Shown here piece by piece: positions 35,479 to 64,000 of a DNA stretch of 64,000 nt (the first letter of the stretch is position 1; every line of letters starts with the position of its first letter). Location of the stretch: contig OY979729.1 in assembly GCA_963855995.1 (NCBI GenBank), positions 10,248,115 to 10,312,114 on the forward strand, written 5' to 3'. The translations under genes were made by a program, and so were the position numbers. The notes under the pieces were generated by a model. The model was given only the letters and a program-made list of their open reading frames with translations, ran no database searches and was not told where the DNA came from. Source of the stretch: Muricea muricata. Taxonomy: Eukaryota; Cnidaria; Anthozoa; Malacalcyonacea; Plexauridae.

Positions 35479-38400
35479 CTCCATAAGTTAACATCCTCAA
35501 CTGCACCAAACTGCGAAAATAGAAATAACAATTTAATCTCCATAATAAGAGAGAGAGCTAAATTTGTAAAGGAAACGCAAGTTTGCCTTGATCCAGTGTA
35601 AAACTTTTGAGAAATCACTACTTTAGACGTGACAGTTTTATTCGAACAATAGAACATATTAAAATGACTCGATTGTTTGAAAAGTAAGATTAGATACAAA
35701 GATTTGATTTTTAAATGGAAAGAACTGAAGATTTCAAACTCTACTCTACACACGGAAGCTATAAAGCCGGATATATGGTACACAAATTCGATGGTTCAGC
35801 ACCAGCAGTTCTCAAGAAGACACCGCCTTCTTCAACGAACTTTGCATAAACATACAAATATGTGTACAATATTAACAAACTTTCCAATGATATATTTTTC
35901 ACACTTTACAGCATTTTGCAACTAAACATTACAAATTTACTTAAATTTCGCTATGTTCTTTCTAGAGGTGACGATTATTTCTCTTACAACAGTGGCGGTG
36001 ATAGAAGCGGGGGCAAGAGCATTTATATTAATAATATTTCTAAAGAATTAATCATAAGCACTCAGAAAAGCCAATTGCAACATGTGTTCATACTGGGCAG
36101 GTATTTGGTATTTAAGTACCAAGGGCAAACATGGAAATTTGTCTAAAATTTTTGCCTCGTAAGAGCTACGATAAGAATGGTTTATTTCTTCTTATGATAT
36201 TTGTGTCAATTGGCGTTGTTCTTATCAGTATAGCTGGTATTTTAGAGGCGCAAGCGACATTAGAATGCAACCCAAACAGAAACCTCGCAAGCGATGTCTC
36301 AACAAGGAAGTACATTGCCACGCAATGTTTCCTCAAATACGCGCGAGAATTTTACCCTCCGTTACCTATTTACGCTCTGGTCCTGATGAATTTTGGAATT
36401 GTGTACTTGCTCAGTATTATCTACGCTCATTTGGTGGAGCATCGCGTGAAAATTCTCACAGAGCCACCGAGTGCAAGGACGGATGACGGCGGAGAGGAAA
36501 GTCAACCACTATCGACGGGTATTACAGAAGCAAGTGCAGACCTTGCGACTTATGGAAAGTGGGCTGGTCGTTATATTGTTTTCACGGCATATGTCACGCA
36601 TTTGATTGTTTTTCGTATAATACCATTGGCAGTATTTGCAGTATTGCTCTTAACATCATCGAATTTTCCTCTCAAATTTCAATGTCATTTGACCACGAGT
36701 ATTCCCCCTGCAAACTTTACAAAAAGTTCGAACTCAACGGTGGAGTGCATTTATCCTATGAGCAGCAAAAATGAAATACTATCCACCACGGTGGTACAAT
36801 AAATTTCGCTGTCGGTACAGTGGCGTTCGTGGAACTTGTTTATCTGTTGTGCTCAGCATGGAAAGATCATAACCTACTTACTGACCTAGAGTTTTGTCGT
36901 GTTTACCTGAGAAAGCATAAAAGAATCAGAGAATTACAAAGAATTATCAGGGAAACGATACCCAAGCACTTGTTGCAAATTTATGATGATTTTGGCGGGA
37001 AACATATGTCAAATAGAAACCTAAAAGATATGTATATCAATGTCGTAATTCAAAAGGGAAGACAAGTGGGCATGAAACAGTTTGAGAACAGACATGAGAC
37101 ATATGAGGCCTACTTCAAAAAACCAGAGAATGCAACTAAGTTGAAGAATACGGCTGATCTATTCAAACCCACAGAGTTAAAAGATGGCCCCAAGTCTGTT
37201 CTTGTGGTTGGTCGCCCAGGAATCGGCAAAACATTTCTGACAAAAATGATGTTATATGAATGGCAACAACAAAAATCTGAATTCTGGTATGGAAAAATAG
37301 TAATTTTAATACGATTTCGTTGCTTTAATACTGGCAAAATAAGTCTTCGAGATATGTTGCGAAAATCAGATGGACTCCAAGGCGATGATTTCACTCGGAT
37401 CTATGAATACGTTTGTATGGAACCAAGTAACGTTGTTCTGATTTTTGATGGTCTGGATGAGCTTGCAGTGGATGATCAGATTGGAGAAGACAGTGGAAAT
37501 GGCGAGATTGAAGAAACACATATATACAATATCTGGAAACAACTTGTGAGAGGCCAACTATTACCTGGAGCCACTGTACTGACCACGACTCGGCCCACGG
37601 CAGAACGATTATATAAACCTACAATTTATAACTCTATACAGTATGATCGAGAGGTCGAGATCTTGGGCTTCGATGAAGAAGAGGTGAAAAACTATGTTGA
37701 AAAATTTTGTGGTGGTGACAAGCAAAAAAGTACAGAGATATGGAGTTTGATCAAGGACTCGCCAGAGCTTTTGACCACATGCTACATACCAGTTTCATCC
37801 TACATTGTCTGTTTAACACTAGATGAAAGCATTAAAATGGATAACCAAGAAGAAGTTGATGGTCAAGGAAATGTTCCCAGAACAATGACAGAATTGTACA
37901 AGAGAGCTATAAACATTTTGCTGTTTAGGCATCATTTAGAACACAAGGGCAAAGAAAAACCAAAGAACTATATTACTGCTAAGCTTCCTAAACAACTTCA
38001 AGATGACTTGAACAAACTTAAAGAAATTGCAAGAAAGGGGATGAGGAAAGAAAAGTTGATATTCTACGATGACGAAGTTGATGCTGGAATCCCAGATTGT
38101 GGATTATTTAACAAGTTAGAAGATAAAAGTCAAAATATCTTTTGTTTTCTTCATCTTACTATTCAAGAGTTTCTTGCAGCACTAGACGTGGTTGATGATA
38201 TGGACAATGTCGAATCCTTCTTATCTGACCACATTAAAAAACCCAAGTGGCATTTAGTGATCTTGTTTGTTGCTGGGTTGATTGGAGATAAATTTAGAGA
38301 AATGAAGTCACAGAGGTATACAAAATAGTTCATATATTTTAGTAGTTATGGTTCCAATGCATTGTGGAATCATTGTGGAGTCTTGTGAGGTTCAGTACTC

Positions 38401-46654: not shown

Positions 46655-49600
46655 ATGGAAATTTGTCTAAAATTTTTGCCTCGTAAGAGCTACGATAAGT
46701 ATGGTTTATTTCTTCTTATGATATTTGTATCAATTGGCGTTATTCTTATTGGTATAGCGGGTATTTTCGAGGCGCAAACGACATTAGAATGTAACCCAGA
46801 CAAAAACCTCGCAAGCGATGTCTCAACAAGGAAGTACATTGCCACGCAATGTTTCCTCAAATACGCGCAAGAATTTTACCCTCCGTTACCTATTTACGCT
46901 CTGGTCCTGATGAATTTTGGAATTGTGTACTTGCTCAGTATGATCTACGCTCTTTTGGTGGAACATCGCGTGAAAATACTCACAGAGCCACCGAGTGCAA
47001 GGACGGATGACGGCGGAGAGGAAAGTCTACCACCATCGACGGGTAATACAGCAGCAAGTGCAGACCCTGCGACTTATAGAAAGTGGGCTGGTCGTTATAT
47101 TGTTTTCACGGCATATGTTACGCATTTGATTGTTTGTCGTATAATACCATTGGCAGTATTCGCAGTATTGCTCTTGACATCATCGAGTTTTCCTGTCCAA
47201 TTTCAATGTCATTTGACCACGAAAACCACGAGTACTCCCCCCGCAAATTTTACAAAAAATTCGAACTCAACGGTGGACTGCATTTATCCCATGAGCAGCA
47301 AAAATGAAATGCTAGCCACCACGGTGGTGACAGTAAATTTCGTTGTCGGTACAGCGGCGTTCGTGGAACTTATTTATCTGTTGTGCTCAGCATGGAAAGA
47401 TCATTACCTGCTTACTGACCTAGAGTTTTGTCATGTTTACCAGAGAAAGCATAGAAGCATCAGAGAATTACAAAGAATTATCAGGGAGATGATACCCAAG
47501 CACTTGTTGCAAATTTATGATGATTTTGGCGGAAACCATTTGTCAATTAGGGAACTGAAAGATATGTATATCAATGTTATAATTCAAGAGGGAAGACAAG
47601 TGGGTATGAAAAGGTTTGAGAACAGACATGAGACATACCAGACCTACTTCAAAAAACCAGAGAATGCAACTAAGCTGAAGAATACGGCTGATCTATTTAT
47701 ACCCACTGAGTCAAAAAATGACCCTGAACCTGCTAAGTCGGTTCTTGTGGTTGGTCGCCCAGGAATCGGCAAAACATTCCTGACAAAAATGATGTTATAT
47801 GAATGGCAACAACAAAAATCTCAATTCTGGTATAACAAAATAGTAATTTTAATACGATTTCGTTGCTTTAACACTGGCAAAATAAGTCTTCGAGATATGT
47901 TGCGAAAATCAGATGGGCTCCAAGGCGATGATTTCACTCGGATCTATGAATACATTTGTATGGAACCAAGTAACGTTGTTCTGATTTTTGATGGTCTGGA
48001 TGAACTTGCAGTGGATGATCAGATTGGAGAAGACAGTGGAAATGGAGAGAATGAAGAAACACATATATACAATATCTGGAAACAACTCGTGAGAGGTCAA
48101 CTATTACCTGGAGCTACTGTACTAACCACGACTCGGCCCACGGCAGAACGATTATATAGATCTACAATTTATGATCCCATATGCTACGATCGAGAGGTTG
48201 AGATCTTGGGCTTCCACGAAGAAGAGGTGAAAAACTATGTTGAAAAATTTTGTGGTGATGACAAGCAAAAAAGTACAGAGATATGGAGTTTAATAAAGGA
48301 CTCGCCAGAGCTTTTGACCATATGCTACATACCAGTTTCATCCTACATTGTCTGTTTAACACTAGATGAAAGCATTAAAATGGATAAACAAGAAGAAGTT
48401 GATGGTCAAGGAAATGTCCCCAAAACAATGACAGAATTGTACAAGAGAGCTATAAACATTTTGCTGTTTAGGCATCATTTAGAATACAAGGGCAAAGAAA
48501 AACCAAAGAACTATATTACTGCTAAGCTTCCTAAAGAACTTCAAGATGACTTGAACAAACTTAAAGAAACTGCAAGAAAGGGCATGAGGGAAGAAAAGTT
48601 GATATTCTACAATGATGAAGTTGATTCTGCAATCCCAGATTGTGGATTATTTAACAAGTTAGAAGACAAAAATCAAAACATCTTTTGTTTTCTTCATCTT
48701 ACTATTCAAGAGTTTCTTGCAGCACTAGACGTGGTTGATGATATGGACAATGTCGAATCCTTCTTATCTGAGCACATTGAAGATCCCAAATGGCATTTAG
48801 TGATCTTGTTTGTTGCTGGGTTGATTGGAGATAAATTTAGAGAAATGGAGTCACAGAGGTATACAAAGTTTGTATTTCATATATTTTAATAGTTATGGTT
48901 CCAATACATTGTGGAATCATTGTGGTGTCTTGTGGGGTTCAGTGCTCTCACTTCCAGGATTCTTTCTGAGAAATTCTCTCCAGAAATTATTTTACGAATT
49001 TTTTTATTTTAAAAATGTTTAAGGAATTTTCTAAGATTTTGGTGGGCTGTCACTGATCTTAATATAGCAATAGAGCACCTACATGGCCATGTAAAAGGCG
49101 GAAATAGAGTTAAAATACAGACCCTATATTTTTAGCACCCACTGCTTAAAAACCTCTCTCAGGCATGCCCTGAAATAATCCAGCTCCATAATTCATGAAA
49201 TGCTGTTCCCCTGAACTTATCATTGTGATTTATCTGATGACAAAGTTAATAAATTGAACACGTCTGCCAGATGGTCAATTGTATCTGATTCACTCATGCT
49301 TATTAATTGAATTCTAAAATCAGGCAAACAGAACTTTCAGATGCTGAATACACTAAAGAGCTTACACGAAACGAAAGATTAAGACAATGGTTTGCCAGGA
49401 GGTACGTTATTTATTACTAATAAAAAAGTTTAGAATAAACATGACAGATCAGTGTAGAAAGGTAGCCTCAAACTTGTTCAAATTTCGGATCTATACAGTT
49501 CTTTGTTTTGTTTACCAGTAACTATTGTGAGTTAAATCGGTTAACAAAGTTTTTGTGAAAATGTGGACACTACACACAATACAAATGGTCAGAAACCAAT

Positions 49601-52600
49601 TTGAGATCTTGTTTCAACTCAATTTTTGCAGTTTTCCCATGCGCCACATACATTATTTGTTTCATAAACTTGTTTCGGAAATTTTTCGTAATGCACATAT
49701 TAAGGCCTGTCAATTTCCTAGTAAATGCAAGCTAAGTTTATTAATTAAGTGTGAACGGTTTCTATATGGGATCAAATTCAATGTTCTGATGGACATCAAA
49801 TACAGTTGGGTTGGACAGACAATGATCCTCCAATTTCTGTCGAATGCTTTTGTTTTGTGGCTGAACACTTTTAAGAATGGGTCAGGCAATGTCTGTGACC
49901 GACCAACATTTTAAACTCGGAAGAAATTAAATGTACACCTAGCATACACTAGCTACACGATATTGACGGAAATACAAGCATTTGACGTTTCAATGTGCTT
50001 TCAAAATTCGTAAACATATGGCAAAAATCGGTTTGTTAAATTAATTGGAAAACCTTTTCTATTTCCCTTAAAAACTTTTCAAATTCAGTGATTGTAACTT
50101 TAATTGCAAACTTATTTTAAAAAGTAAAAATTACACTAAAGAATGATTCTTTGGAATAAAGTTTAAGGCAGTGGCCGGTAAGATGACATGGTATTGTAGC
50201 CCCGAGTAAAGCAACGTTTGAAAATTTTTTGCGAGAAGGCACTTGCTAAATTCCGACCAAATAACGGGAAAACGGAACGATTGGCCTAACCGTCACGATC
50301 TCCTGAACTGGCAATTTGCGACTCTCTTCTTTGGGGCTATCAAAAGTTTCAAAGCTATCCAACAATTTGGAACGTGCAGCGTGATCATGCAGCAGCCAAG
50401 GAATCTTAGAGAAATTGGTGAAGCAATCGTTTCTGCTTGTGAATCCTTGGGTGAAGAAATGATCCAAAACGCTTTTGATGGCATGATCGCACGCTCGCCG
50501 CGCTGGCGCTCACGCTTCGCCTTGTTGTGTCGCGCACAAAGTGTTGTGAGTGAGCGGACTTGTAGCAAGTCTACATGATGTCTAGAGCTGTCTAGAGCAC
50601 GAAGATTCATTAAGGCATATATAAGAACATGTTTTTCCTGATGAGTGAACAAATATTAATTATTGGTTAACTATTTTGTATATAAACGCATTTTTTAGGA
50701 AGAATAAGGCAATCAACGAGTAAACTAAATTTTAATTTGAGGTGCCAGGGCTAATTTTTTAAATTTTCAAAAATGGATAGTTAAGTGATGTATATCAAAT
50801 ACGGATAATTAAGTGTTCTCAAAATTTAAGTTAGACTTTTCAACATGCAATGGAGTTTATTTTAGTTCCACATGAAATTAAACAGGTAAAGTTTTTTTTT
50901 TTTGGGGGGGGGGGGGGGGGGCGAAGGAGACCCGGTATATCCTTTGAAAAATATATGAGCATATCCATGATGTGAACACAAATTTGTACGTTTATAAGCT
51001 GAATTTGTTTAGGATTCGAAACCTTCACACCGCTCTTTGTTGGGGCCAACAATTTTTTCTTGCGCTACTTTTATAAACATGTAAAAACTGCAAACATCCA
51101 CGGTGCGACCATGCCCATGGACCAGTTGTATGAAAGAGTGACAGGATATAGGTAAAACGTACGTTTTACAGCGTTTATATACCCTGCCCATATCTCACCG
51201 CTTTAGTGATTCATTTAGTAGAATCTCAGTTCTCTAAAAATATCTTTGTTTAGATTCCAACCGTGCAGACCAAAGAGAGGAGTTATAGACAGAGATGATA
51301 GCGAGGCTTTATTCTTGATAAGATGTGCATATGAAATACAAGATGCTCGTGTCATGCAATTACTTGCATCATTTGCGTATGACGAGAACGATGAAGAGGA
51401 CAAAACATTCTGTTTAGCATTCATGGATATTGCGCCAGTGGAATCTACCTCTTTGTTTCAATTTCTGAGTTGTGTCAAGAACTTACAGAAGCTTGAGATT
51501 AATAATTGTCGCATGGAGGATGTAGTTATCCGTGAACTAGTCAGAAAGTTACTGCCAGAAAATAGTGGCAAACGCAAAATCACTGAACTGAACATAACTA
51601 ACAGTGGATTGAAAGATGAAGGTGCTAAATATTTAAGTGATGCTCTGAAGAGTGACAACTGCAAACTTATTAAATTGGGCATAAGTCAAAATAAATTGAA
51701 AGATGAAGGTGCTAAATATTTAAGTGATGCTCTGGAAAGTGACAACTGCAAACTTATTAAATTGGACATAAGTCACAATAAATGGAAAGATGAAGGTTCT
51801 AAGTATTTAAGCAATGCTCTGAAGAGTGACAACTGCAAACTTATTAAATTAGGCATATGGGGAAATGAATTGAAAAAAGAAGGTGCTAAATATTTAAGTG
51901 ATGCTCTGGAGAGTGACAACTGCAAACTTATTAAATTGGACATAAGTCACAATAATTTGAAAGATGAAGGTGCTAAATATTTAAGTGATGCTCTGAAGAG
52001 TGACAACTGCAAACTTATTAAATTGGACATAAGATACAATGAATTGAAAGAAGAAGGTGCTAAATATTTAAGTGATGCTCTGAAGAGTGACAACTGCAAA
52101 CTTACTGAATTGAACATATATGGAAATCAATTGAAAGATGAAGGTGCTAAATATTTAAGTGATGCTCTGAAGAGTGACAACTGCAAACTTATTAAATTGG
52201 ACATAAGATACAATGAATTGAAAGAAGAAGGTGCTAAATATTTAAGTGATGCTCTGAAGAGTGACAACTGCAAACTTACTGAATTGGACATATATGGAAA
52301 TCAATTGAAAGATGAAGGTGCTAAATATTTAAGTGATGCTCTGAAGAGTGACAACTGCAAACTTATTAAATTGGACATAAGTCAAAATGAATTGAAAGAT
52401 GAAGGTGCTAAATATTTAAGTGATGCTCTGGAAAGTGACAACTGCAAACTTATTAAATTGGACATAAGTCACAATAAATTGAAAGATGAAGGTGCTAAGT
52501 ATTTAAGCAATGCTCTGAAGAGTGACAACTGCAAACTTATTAAATTGGGCATATGGGGAAATGAATTGAAAGAAGAAGGTGCTAAGTATTTAAGTGATGC

Positions 52601-52721
52601 TCTGAAGAGTGACAACTGCAAACTTATTAAATTGGACATAAGAGGCAATGAATTGGAAGATGAAGGTGTTAAATATTTAAGTGATGCTCTGAAAAGTGAC
52701 AACTGCAAACTTATTAAATAA
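46655..52721 (+). CDS. NLR copy B: four-span channel-like module + NACHT + LRR
   Basis: Exons 46655-48858, 49324-49401 and 51254-52721, phases matched, about 1249 aa. Residues 1-17 are a short N-terminus. Hydrophobic spans are at about 18-40, 80-102, 148-174 and 222-245. Loop 1 has C46 and C66; loop 2 has C185 and C209 plus sequons NFT (198) and NST (204). This is innexin/pannexin-like topology. It is followed by the NACHT ATPase: Walker A GRPGIGKT (367-374), Walker B LIFDGLDE (443-450), TTTRPTAERL, then FLHLTIQEFLAALDVV of the NLR helical region. Exon 3 gives about 13 LRRs of 29 residues, RNase-inhibitor type, ending at a TAA next to an AAT microsatellite. No death, CARD or TIR domain is present. 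Known of the family: NLRs oligomerise on ligand sensing. A membrane channel or membrane-tethered sensor role is inference. Start: first ATG, 43 bp after a TATA-like box. Confidence 0.85.
50165..50600 (+). pseudogene. mariner/Tc1-type transposase C-terminal remnant (copy B intron 2)
   Basis: One frame reads RSPELAICDSLLWGYQKFQS. After a frameshift another reads NLREIGEAIVSACESLGEEM and IQNAFDGMIARS, as in the C-terminus of mariner-like transposases. It is homologous to 39876-40230 in copy A but retains more. The 112-codon frame at 50243-50578 mixes the wrong frame with the right one and is not a host gene. Confidence 0.55.
51605..52718 (+). repeat. tandem 87-bp LRR-coding units, copy B
   Basis: Thirteen units (the last partial) of 87 bp, nearly identical at DNA level. 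Higher-order structure is visible: units 5-6 are repeated as 7-8 (IRYNE then IYGNQ endings). Units 2-3 (ISHNK, then SNALK...IWGNE) reappear as 10-11. This indicates recent unequal exchange or gene conversion. Confidence 0.85.
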
Positions 52722-52726
52722 CATGA

Positions 52727-52781
<55 letters not shown>

Positions 52782-52792
52782 TAATAATAATG
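52722..52792. repeat. (AAT)n microsatellite interrupting the LRR array
   Basis: About twenty AAT units with one AAAT break, directly after the stop of copy B. LRR-coding sequence resumes on the far side in another frame. Confidence 0.9.
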
Positions 52793-53064
52793 TGAAAAGT
52801 GACAACTGCAAACTTATTAAATTGTACATAAGTGACAATGAATTGAAAGATGAAGGTGCTAAATATTTAAGTGATGCTCTGAAGAGTGACAACTGCAAAC
52901 TTATTGAATTGGGCATATGGGGAAATGAATTGAAAGATGAAGGTGCTAAATATTTAAGTGATGCTTTGAAGAGTGACAACTGCAAACTTATTGAACTGGA
53001 CATAAGTTACAATAAATTGAAAGAAGCTGCTAAATATTTAAGTGATGGTCGTAGTGAGAAATGA
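52793..53064 (+). pseudogene. LRR units stranded beyond the AAT repeat
   Basis: About three more 29-residue LRR units (YISDNE, IWGNE, ISYNK endings) and a terminal AAKYLSDGRSEK before TGA. They are in a different frame from the main exon and separated by the microsatellite. Copy A also has its LRR end here, so this is probably the ancestral C-terminus, now cut off. Confidence 0.7.
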
Positions 53065-53275
53065 AAATCAATACAAAAATCATGTAACACTGTTTTTTCA
53101 TTACTACACTTCAAGTGAATTACACTATGGAACTAGCAAGTATCAGGCCATTATAGAGCAAAGGCCGAAGAGAACAAAGATATAATATTTGTCGACTAGT
53201 GCATGATTCAACCCACAGAATAGAAAAAAAAACAGAGTAAAGCTGTGGATAACAATTTGTTGTCAACAACAGCAC

Positions 53276-62692: not shown

Positions 62693-64000
62693 ATGGAAAG
62701 TTGTCTAAAATTTTTGCCTCGTAAGAGCTACGATAAGAATGGTTTATTTCTTCTTATGATATTTGTATCAATTGGCGTTGTTCTTATTAGTATAGCTGGT
62801 GTTTTCGAGGCGCAAGCGACATTAGAATGTAATCCAGACAAAAACCTCGCAAGCGATGTCTCAACAAGGAAGTACATTACCACGCAATGTTTCCTCAAAT
62901 ACGCACAAGAATTTTACCCTCCGTTACCTATTTACGCTCTGGTCCTGATGAATTTTGGAATTGTGTACTTGCTCAGCATTATCCACGCTCTTTTGGTGGA
63001 ACATCGCGTGAAAATTTTCACAGAGCCATTGAGTGCAAGGACGGATGACGGCGGAGAGGAAAGTCTACCACTGTCGACGGGTACACACGTAAAAATCTCA
63101 CAACTTGTAACAAGTCTGCAGACAAGCCGTCAACAAGATGTGTTCGCACTGCTTGTACCAAGTTTGTCAACAAGTTGTTCCAAACTTGTTGACAACTTGT
63201 AACAAGCTTGACGAAAATATCAGACTTGTTACAAGGTTGTTCTAACAACTCTGATACAATCCTGTTGTAGCAAGTTTGTTACAAGATTGACAACACAAGG
63301 CTGTAACAATATCGTTATATCATGCTGTATCAGTCTTGTTGGAACAATCTTGTAACAGGTCTGATAGTCCCATCAAGCTTGTTACAATTTGTCAACAGCT
63401 TGTTTCAAACTTGTTCCGACAAATTCGGAACAAGCAGTGCGAATACATCTTGTGAACAACTTGTGAACAGACTTGTTACAACTTGTTTGCAGGTCTGTAA
63501 CAACTTGTGCGTTTTTACGTGTGTAATACAGCAGCAAGTGCAGACCCTGCGACTTATGGAAAGTGGGCTGGTCGTTATATTGTTTTCACGGCATATGTTA
63601 CGCATTTGATTGTTTGTCGTATAATACCATTGGTAGTATTCGCAGTATTGCTCTTGACATCATCGAGTTTTCCTGTCCAATTTCAATGTCATTTGCCCAC
63701 GAAAACCACGAGTACTCCCCCCGCAAATTTTACAAAAAATTCGAACTCAACGGCGGACTGCATTTATCCCATGAGCAGCAAAAATGAAATGCTAGCCACC
63801 ACGGTGGTGACAGTAAATTTCGTTGTCGGTACAGTGGCGTTCGTGGAACTTGTTTATCTGTTGTGCTCAGCATGGAAAGATCATTACCTACTTACTGACC
63901 TAGAGTTTTGTCATGTTTACCTGAGAAAGCATAAAACAATCAGAGAATTGCAAAGAATTATTAGGGAAACGATACCCAAGCAGTTGCTGCAAATTTACGA
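62693..64000 (+). pseudogene. NLR copy C, 5' part, coding exon interrupted by a MITE
   Basis: Starts MESCLKFLPRKSYDK and encodes the same four-span module as copies A and B, with loop cysteines conserved. After residue 130 (LPLSTG) a 442-bp insertion (63084-63525) breaks the frame, with a stop at 63200-63202. Homology then resumes with the rest of the module (GKWAGRYIVFTAYVTHLIV, then TM4) and runs to the window edge before NACHT. If the insertion were spliced out by the flanking GT and AG (63081 to 63531), the frame would be restored minus three residues, so it may not be dead. The gene continues outside the window. Confidence 0.75.
63084..63525. mobile_element. 442-bp MITE in NLR copy C exon, TA duplication
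   Basis: The CACACGTAAAAA left end pairs with the inverted right end TTTTTACGTGTG. TA precedes it (63082-63083) and is duplicated at its end (63524-63525). The empty site is visible in copy B (gacggg-TA-atacag). The interior is built from TTGTTACAAGTTGT and CTTGTAACAAG words in both orientations, the same loose family as the 18.4-, 31.4-, 54.1- and 59.3-kb repeats. Confidence 0.85.

Follow-up and report, generated by a model that had tools for sequence, protein, structure and literature searches.

A gene of the octocoral Muricea muricata, located between positions 46,655 and 52,721 of a 64,000-nucleotide stretch of contig OY979729.1 (assembly GCA_963855995.1; hereafter the window), is predicted to encode a NOD-like receptor (NLR) whose N-terminus carries a four-span membrane module with resemblance to large-pore channels, followed by a NACHT domain and leucine-rich repeats (LRRs). 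We interpret this gene, with a probability of roughly 60%, as part of an octocoral family of membrane NLRs containing a connexin-related large-pore module, which by profile is closest to connexins and which would endow these receptors with their own hemichannel assembly or gating. Because the third cysteine pair of connexins is missing, we do not call the module a connexin but assign it to a family with the large-pore fold that is related to connexins, with the whole protein being classified as an NLR. Neither a connexin-NLR nor an innexin-NLR was found among the titles and beginnings of abstracts listed by searches of open-licence literature.

A channel-like module in the frame of an NLR

The open reading frame (ORF) at 46655-48889 on the forward strand encodes 744 residues and constitutes the second of three copies of the module in the window. 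Its sequence contains four stretches with hydropathy values above 1.6 (residues 13-43, 76-103, 148-182 and 219-247), matched by four helices in a model obtained with AlphaFold2 (AF2; residues 13-40, 80-110, 138-175 and 213-248), and two further marginal stretches within the NACHT part (near residues 552-571 and 676-694). Each of the two outer loops contains two cysteines (Cys 46 and 66 in loop 1, Cys 185 and 209 in loop 2), and loop 2 harbors two N-glycosylation sequons (NFT and NST), in agreement with the layout noted in a preliminary description of the region. The NACHT domain extends over residues 363-534 (Pfam PF05729, E 4.4e-26) and includes both Walker A and Walker B motifs. The three-exon structure proposed at the same time is supported by GT/AG dinucleotides at both predicted introns and by the joined exons, which form a single frame of 1,249 residues with one terminal stop and with 11 LRR_6 stretches in the last exon, thus placing module, NACHT domain and C-terminal LRRs in the same predicted protein.

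The same arrangement is found without interruption in a paralogue on contig C11 (L076), where one frame of 1,208 residues holds matches to Connexin (E 7.1e-5, below the cut-off), NACHT (2.6e-28), NLRC4_HD2 (3.2e-7, just below the cut-off) and LRR_6 (1.8e-12). Since this frame reads from the module into the LRRs, the concern that module and NACHT domain reside on separate mRNAs is answered as far as sequence can do so, and the proposed fusion of a channel-like module to a NACHT-LRR protein is supported.

The module defines a conserved family

The searched genome comprises 453 Mb on 74 contigs, and all match counts are lower bounds by the search tool's own statement. With the window module as query, we found at least 44 matches at E<=0.01, which are followed on the same strand by a NACHT match within 1.5 kb in 39 and within 3.5 kb in 41 cases. 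Conversely, a module is located no more than 3.5 kb upstream of 35 of the 96 NACHT matches, on 11 contigs. The module of a member on contig C15 (L072) as query yielded at least 51 matches, 43 with a NACHT domain within 3.5 kb, which touch 36 distinct NACHT domains of the 96, in a pairing based on those 42 of the 96 NACHT entries that remained after removal of contigs and sites lacking a module match in the vicinity. On contig C11, ten matches are located within open frames of 979-1,211 residues.

Some modules appear to be detached from this context. Five matches of the window query have no NACHT domain within 1.5 kb; for those at C12:12553387 and C12:12575769, one is found within 3.5 kb, whereas at C12:12561768 (L089) no NACHT match was found within this distance. 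A decayed copy that retains remnants of the helical domain and LRRs seems to be present at C11:9333396, and a decayed fragment next to a reverse transcriptase at C7:10808958. With the C15 module as query, 8 of 51 matches have no NACHT domain within 3.5 kb. One of these eight, an open four-span frame of 320 residues on the minus strand of C3:42645099-42645878 (L092), by eye carries cysteines at the same four places and obtained no Pfam match at E<=5; it has no NACHT match nearby and might represent a relative of the module that stands alone. No relatives turned up when prokaryote genomes (A4) and viral contigs (with the L072 module) were scanned for patterns, which is what one would expect of an animal family.

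In an alignment of 17 members, the most divergent of which share 23% identity with the window copy, the four cysteines and Lys 11, Tyr 70, Tyr 98, Tyr 154, His 157, Leu 158, Arg 162 and Glu 238 are invariant. The strict conservation of these twelve residues in diverged members argues against a chance origin of the module. Between the window module and a paralogue on contig C2, the ratio of non-synonymous to synonymous substitution rates (dN/dS) amounts to 0.31 at a dS of 0.95, and judged by this comparison the module is under purifying selection. Values among recent copies on contig C14 range from 0.41 to 0.77, and in the small segment encompassing spans 1 and 2 they exceed 1 in some C14 pairs at very low dS. 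Sequons in loop 2 are present in 14 of the 17 members. The spacing between the cysteines of this loop varies from 8 to 33 residues, being 10 in L070 and L071 as in Cx26, and one member (L066) carries two extra cysteines in loop 2.

Two observations concern NACHT genes of the same genome. An array at C9:8392834-9312926 holds at least 18 NACHT matches with no module match upstream, and the two genes that were read (L081, L082) contain no four-span module in frame. In a paralogue on C14 (L013, at about 10437700-10438030), a short tandem repeat composed of ESVSESTAASWEEGSLGI-like units is found in the linker preceding the NACHT domain.

Profiles place the module closest to connexins

The relationship of the module to known channels was investigated by profile-profile comparison with hhalign, a check that had been suggested in the preliminary description. 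The module profile aligns with that of four human connexins at 96.6% (score 72.1) over 199 collinear columns with about 17% identity, and the value drops to 56.3% with Cx26 as sole connexin reference. Equivalent comparisons resulted in 6.7% for pannexins, 0.1% for innexins, 33.0% for both combined (an alignment of 40 columns in span 1 and loop 1), 5.5% for LRRC8, 0.8% for one CALHM2 sequence entered by hand, 0.2% for claudin and 1.6% for tetraspanin. For control pairs at the same setting, we obtained 94.6-95.8% (score 59-65) between pannexins and innexins, 79.3% between pannexins and LRRC8 (23.1% in the reverse direction), 0.1-0.2% between connexins and pannexins, and 21.4% and 10.7% between connexins and LRRC8. 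When columns were shuffled in blocks of ten, the maximum score against connexins among 60 shuffles was 30.8, and the reversed profile and local shuffles failed. The score was 72.9 after removal of the two connexin-nearest members and 55.1 for the subgroup of the window member alone. Against pannexins, pannexins with innexins, and LRRC8, the module profile scored 27.4, 35.1 and 27.3, with shuffle maxima of 23.9, 22.4 and 24.4, margins that amount to a second, faint signal towards the other families of large-pore channels.

In these alignments, Cys 46, 66, 185 and 209 correspond to Cys 53, 64, 169 and 180 of Cx26, and the invariant Arg 162 and Glu 238 fall on the arginine of the third (TM3) and the glutamate of the fourth transmembrane span (TM4) of this connexin. 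In connexins, disulphide bridges connect residues 53-180, 60-174 and 64-169, and on that pairing the module family would retain two bridges and lack the middle one. All 17 members carry, at invariant aligned positions, two cysteines per outer loop as found in innexins and pannexins instead of the three of connexins. The cysteine layout that had led to the initial assignment as an innexin/pannexin-like module is real, and a module like that of large-pore channels is supported, whereas by sequence the module is nearer to connexins than to innexins, pannexins or LRRC8.

In a Pfam scan of 16 members at E<=5, with filters that drop most matches above about 0.1, ten matched PF00029 (Connexin) with a best value of 1.3e-8, whereas PF00876 (Innexin) and PF12534 (Pannexin_like) are absent from the 22 families matched. 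Among eight longer proteins, the C15 member reaches 32.6 bits for Connexin (cut-off 31.3) in a frame that also holds the NACHT domain, four others remain below the cut-off (18.1-25.2 bits) and three (L021, L031 and L018) have no Connexin match at E<=0.1. A search of the 453-Mb genome with PF00029 retrieved 16 matches at E<=0.1 (20 candidates scored), 15 of which adjoin a NACHT domain, the exception being C12:12562077 with no NACHT match nearby. As all of these fall on places of the module family, no canonical connexin was found in the genome. Searches for innexins with PF00876 and a hand-entered sequence of Drosophila Inx2 gave no genome match, although in the lack of a positive control this does not prove their absence. 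The profile of 16 modules obtained eight distinct matches at E<=10 among sequences of the PDB, all of them connexins (best 0.012), whereas the window module as single-sequence query obtained none. As a counterweight, among individual members compared to a hidden Markov model (HMM) of four connexins, only L072 and L080 stand out, their scores being reached by 0 and 2 of 1,700 shuffles, respectively.

The predicted fold is that of large-pore channels

Models of the window module and the C15 module were generated with AF2 from alignments of the same 17 members, which for the C15 module were reordered and included one slightly longer row. The model of the C15 module (predicted local distance difference test, pLDDT, 80.7; predicted template modelling score, pTM, 0.71) has 111 fold matches in the PDB at E<=0.001, the best 50 of which are all connexins, with Cx26 at the top (1.2e-6, TM-score 0.73 on the target). 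For the window module (pLDDT 71.5, pTM 0.66), 62 matches were obtained at the same threshold. The difference between the two members, described below, could either mean that the family is truly located between the groups or that the weaker window model is misleading. Taken with the alignments, the models suggest that the N-terminal 260 residues adopt the connexin/pannexin/LRRC8 fold, with the four loop cysteines matching four of the six found in connexins.

Several results weigh against the assignment to connexins. The best 50 of the 62 fold matches of the window module are all LRRC8 proteins or pannexins (best 7.5e-5), both models rest on alignments of 17 rows, and AF2 was trained on connexin structures. 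The window member on its own matches neither PF00029 nor any other relevant family of Pfam, and its score with the four-connexin HMM is reached by 1,421 of 1,700 shuffles, in a test that is weak for most single members, while L074 stands out with an HMM of pannexins and innexins (5 of 1,700 shuffles). A profile of the connexin-nearer subgroup retrieved one PDB sequence (GJD4, 0.22), weaker than the mixed profile. Finally, the reference sequences of connexins, innexins, pannexins, LRRC8A and CALHM2 used in hhalign were entered by hand, with Cx26 alone being checked, and the third cysteine pair is absent.

Alternative explanations

These results could indicate that the module stems from the innexin/pannexin/LRRC8 side and that its connexin-like features are convergent, in which case the protein would still be a channel, as a second LRRC8-like invention to which a NACHT domain was added. 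Fold matches of the window member, the two cysteines per loop and the loop sequons as in pannexins, the weak profile signal to pannexins and innexins, the score of L074 above nearly all shuffles and the presence of LRRC8-like genes in the genome all point in this direction. We regard such an origin as unlikely, as the profile strongly prefers connexins, neither PF00876 nor PF12534 is matched by the 16 members scanned, the best fold matches of the C15 member are connexins and no innexin match was obtained in the genome searches described above. A slightly smaller chance is given to a module that forms no pore, its four spans serving as an anchor or a dimeric signalling unit and thereby placing the NLR at the membrane. 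While anchoring alone would account for the conservation of hydrophobicity, the invariant loop cysteines and conserved polar residues in the spans exceed what an anchor needs, and the fold matches listed for both modelled members are pore-forming subunits.

Convergence of an unrelated four-span family towards connexins, to which the low identity of the profile alignment and the lack of a score for most single members could be ascribed, appears improbable in view of the 199 collinear columns, the failure of local shuffles and of the reversed profile, and the lack of any signal from claudins and tetraspanins. It is hardly conceivable that the fusion reflects an artefact of annotation, with module and NACHT domain belonging to separate genes or to a mis-assembled array. 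Although copies 1 and 3 of the window are damaged and the joining of both parts is predicted from genomic sequence, the same order recurs on 11 contigs, ten C11 matches are found in long open frames, one of which was scanned from module to LRRs, and purifying selection is seen against the C2 paralogue. We retain a connexin-related channel module within an NLR as preferred interpretation.

Comparison to known systems

The module shares with connexins (PF00029; such as Cx26 and GJD4) the four spans, the short N-terminus, aligned cysteines, the TM3 arginine and TM4 glutamate, the profile score and the predicted fold of the C15 member, and differs from them by the lack of the middle cysteine in each loop, the fusion to NACHT-LRR, the sequons in loop 2 and the occurrence in a cnidarian. 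LRRC8 proteins (PF12534), which form volume-regulated anion channels, similarly combine an N-terminal four-span large-pore module with C-terminal cytosolic LRRs and resemble the predicted fold of the window member. In contrast to LRRC8, where the LRRs directly follow the four-span module, NACHT and helical domains intervene here, and LRRC8 proteins are not known to contain a NACHT domain; PF12534 is unmatched and the profile score barely exceeds that of shuffles. An identity of the module as LRRC8 was thus considered and rejected: LRRC8-like genes are found in the genome, yet their profiles barely match the module. With pannexins and innexins (PF00876), the module has in common two cysteines per outer loop, glycosylation sites in the loops and the fold match of the window member, whereas the profile similarity is partial and weak and PF00876 is unmatched.

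LRRC8-like genes of this genome are located at C11:12643604, C4:16032157, C4:16039413 and C10:2160808 (L039-L042), with PF12534 values down to 1e-50, and the frame at C4:16032157 by eye continues into LRR-like sequence. LRRC8 has been described as chordate-specific.

In plants, resistosomes of coiled-coil NLRs (CNLs) are oligomers thought to form a cation channel via a small funnel of amphipathic helices, which is distinct from a four-span channel subunit. Xenia and Dendronephthya are octocorals. Both belong to the 15 cnidarians covered by an NLR survey, passages of which report 35 partner domains of NACHT (PMC8260672). As in the present family, NLRs of cnidarians that carry HEPN, DEATH, CARD, TIR or glycosyl transferase domains are described there to combine NACHT, partner domains and repeats and to be expanded in anthozoans. 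The word connexin is absent from the main text of this survey and from that of a second article (PMC10236652), and the passages of the survey name neither a partner domain like the module nor any other channel effector.

Features of the window and additional observations

The features of the window are compiled in Table 1. The copy at 46655 is the only one of the three with an intact module. The four cysteines are present in each copy, as initially described, although the modules of copies 1 and 3 are damaged, with an insertion of inverted-repeat type, about 440 bp in length, interrupting the latter. This element, at 63083-63524, resembles a miniature inverted-repeat transposable element, with ends ACACACGTAAAAA and TTTTTACGTGTGT. 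By eye, an AAT microsatellite directly follows the stop codon of the gene at 46655 and precedes further LRR-coding units past the stop (52724-53065).

Table 1. Coordinates of module-bearing genes and their predicted parts, counted from the first nucleotide of the window.
Feature	Positions	Strand	Basis
Exon 1: four-span connexin-related module, linker, NACHT, helical domains	46655..48858	+	ORF, hydropathy, Pfam, splice sites
Short N-terminus, residues 1-15, connexin-like length, partly helical in models (low pLDDT in window member)	46655..46699	+	
Span 1, about residues 16-40	46700..46774	+	Hydropathy, AF2
Outer loop 1 with C46, C66 (aligned with Cx26 C53, C64)	46775..46891	+	Alignments, AF2
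Span 2, residues 80-110	46892..46984	+	Hydropathy, AF2
Cytosolic loop, residues 111-137, low model confidence; insertion of copy 3 at equivalent site	46985..47065	+	
Span 3, residues 138-175, with invariant Y154, H157, L158, R162	47066..47179	+	Alignment, AF2
Outer loop 2 with C185, C209 and two N-glycosylation sequons (NFT, NST)	47180..47290	+	AF2, sequence
Span 4, residues 213-248, with invariant E238 aligned with connexin TM4 glutamate	47291..47398	+	Alignments, AF2
Cytosolic linker, beginning near conserved D/E-x-EF motif (E257, F258)	47399..47740	+	Alignment
NACHT domain, PF05729, E 4.4e-26	47741..48256	+	Pfam
Walker A GRPGIGKT	47753..47776	+	Read from translation
Walker B region LIFDGLDEL	47981..48007	+	Read from translation
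Exon 2, 26 codons	49324..49401	+	Splice sites and frame
Exon 3: LRR array up to stop codon	51254..52721	+	Pfam, splice sites
Tandem copy 1 of module and NACHT; frame change near 36796	36131..38337	+	ORFs
Tandem copy 3 of module, extending past window end; inverted-repeat element near 63083-63524	62693..63998	+	

One strand of the mitochondrial contig C74 (19,292 bp, taken as circular) carries, with protein-coding genes named from their translations, cox1-nad1-cob-nad6-nad3-nad4L-mt-mutS-nad2-nad5-nad4, and cox3-atp6-atp8-cox2 are encoded by the opposite strand. This corresponds to the octocoral gene order A, described in a passage on Paramuricea (PMC9673786). A tunicate as source of the DNA, initially suspected in view of the connexin and LRRC8 matches, is ruled out by the mitochondrial genome. 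One ARAGORN scan with the bacterial code found no tRNA in the cox1-cox2 stretch, and an additional ORF is located between nad4 and nad5 (C74:10000-10467; L086:1-468, minus strand). A nuclear copy of cox1 with one stop codon at C1:38414782-38416095 is probably a nuclear mitochondrial insertion.

Proposed mechanism and implications

The loops bearing the sequons would be located outside the cell and NACHT-LRR thus on the cytosolic side, which is also faced by the LRRs of LRRC8. NACHT domains oligomerise upon activation of NLRs and large-pore channels are rings of subunits. The combination of both in one chain suggests assembly or opening driven by a ligand: the LRRs might sense a cytosolic ligand, and ATP-driven oligomerisation of the NACHT domains could assemble or open a ring of modules. 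As the frequent sequons of loop 2 argue against docking, this ring would more likely be an unpaired hemichannel than a gap junction, and the passage of ions and small metabolites such as ATP may lead to alarm or cell death. In pannexins, sequons in outer loops are reported, in a passage of Welzel and Schuster, to hinder the formation of gap junctions (PMC8769644), and parts of another account ascribe to large-pore channels a guiding role when inflammasomes are activated in mammals (PMC9868820).

According to passages of Slivko-Koltchik et al., connexins occur in vertebrates and tunicates, with none reported for lancelets or the other phyla shown (PMC6391747), and in passages of Welzel and Schuster no connexin-like protein outside chordates is recognized except for an unconfirmed sea-urchin transcript, with a de novo origin proposed in early chordates (PMC8769644). 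Large-pore families are described, in a section of a further article, to have little or no evolutionary linkage (PMC9868820). On a broader scale, we tentatively consider, at somewhat less than even odds, that connexins did not originate from scratch in early chordates and that a connexin-related channel domain predates the split of cnidarians and bilaterians and survives in octocorals as NLR effector, with modules located between connexins and pannexin/LRRC8 proteins, large-pore channels sharing one ancestry and the receptors being ligand-assembled hemichannels. A cnidarian family that is aligned with connexins by profile along the greater part of its length, with one member modelled like LRRC8 and pannexins, would make the origin of connexins testable. 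Whereas in mammals the path from sensing to ion flux runs via separate channel and inflammasome proteins, these receptors would be animal NLRs with a channel of their own, and thus offer a shorter path from sensing to ion flux.

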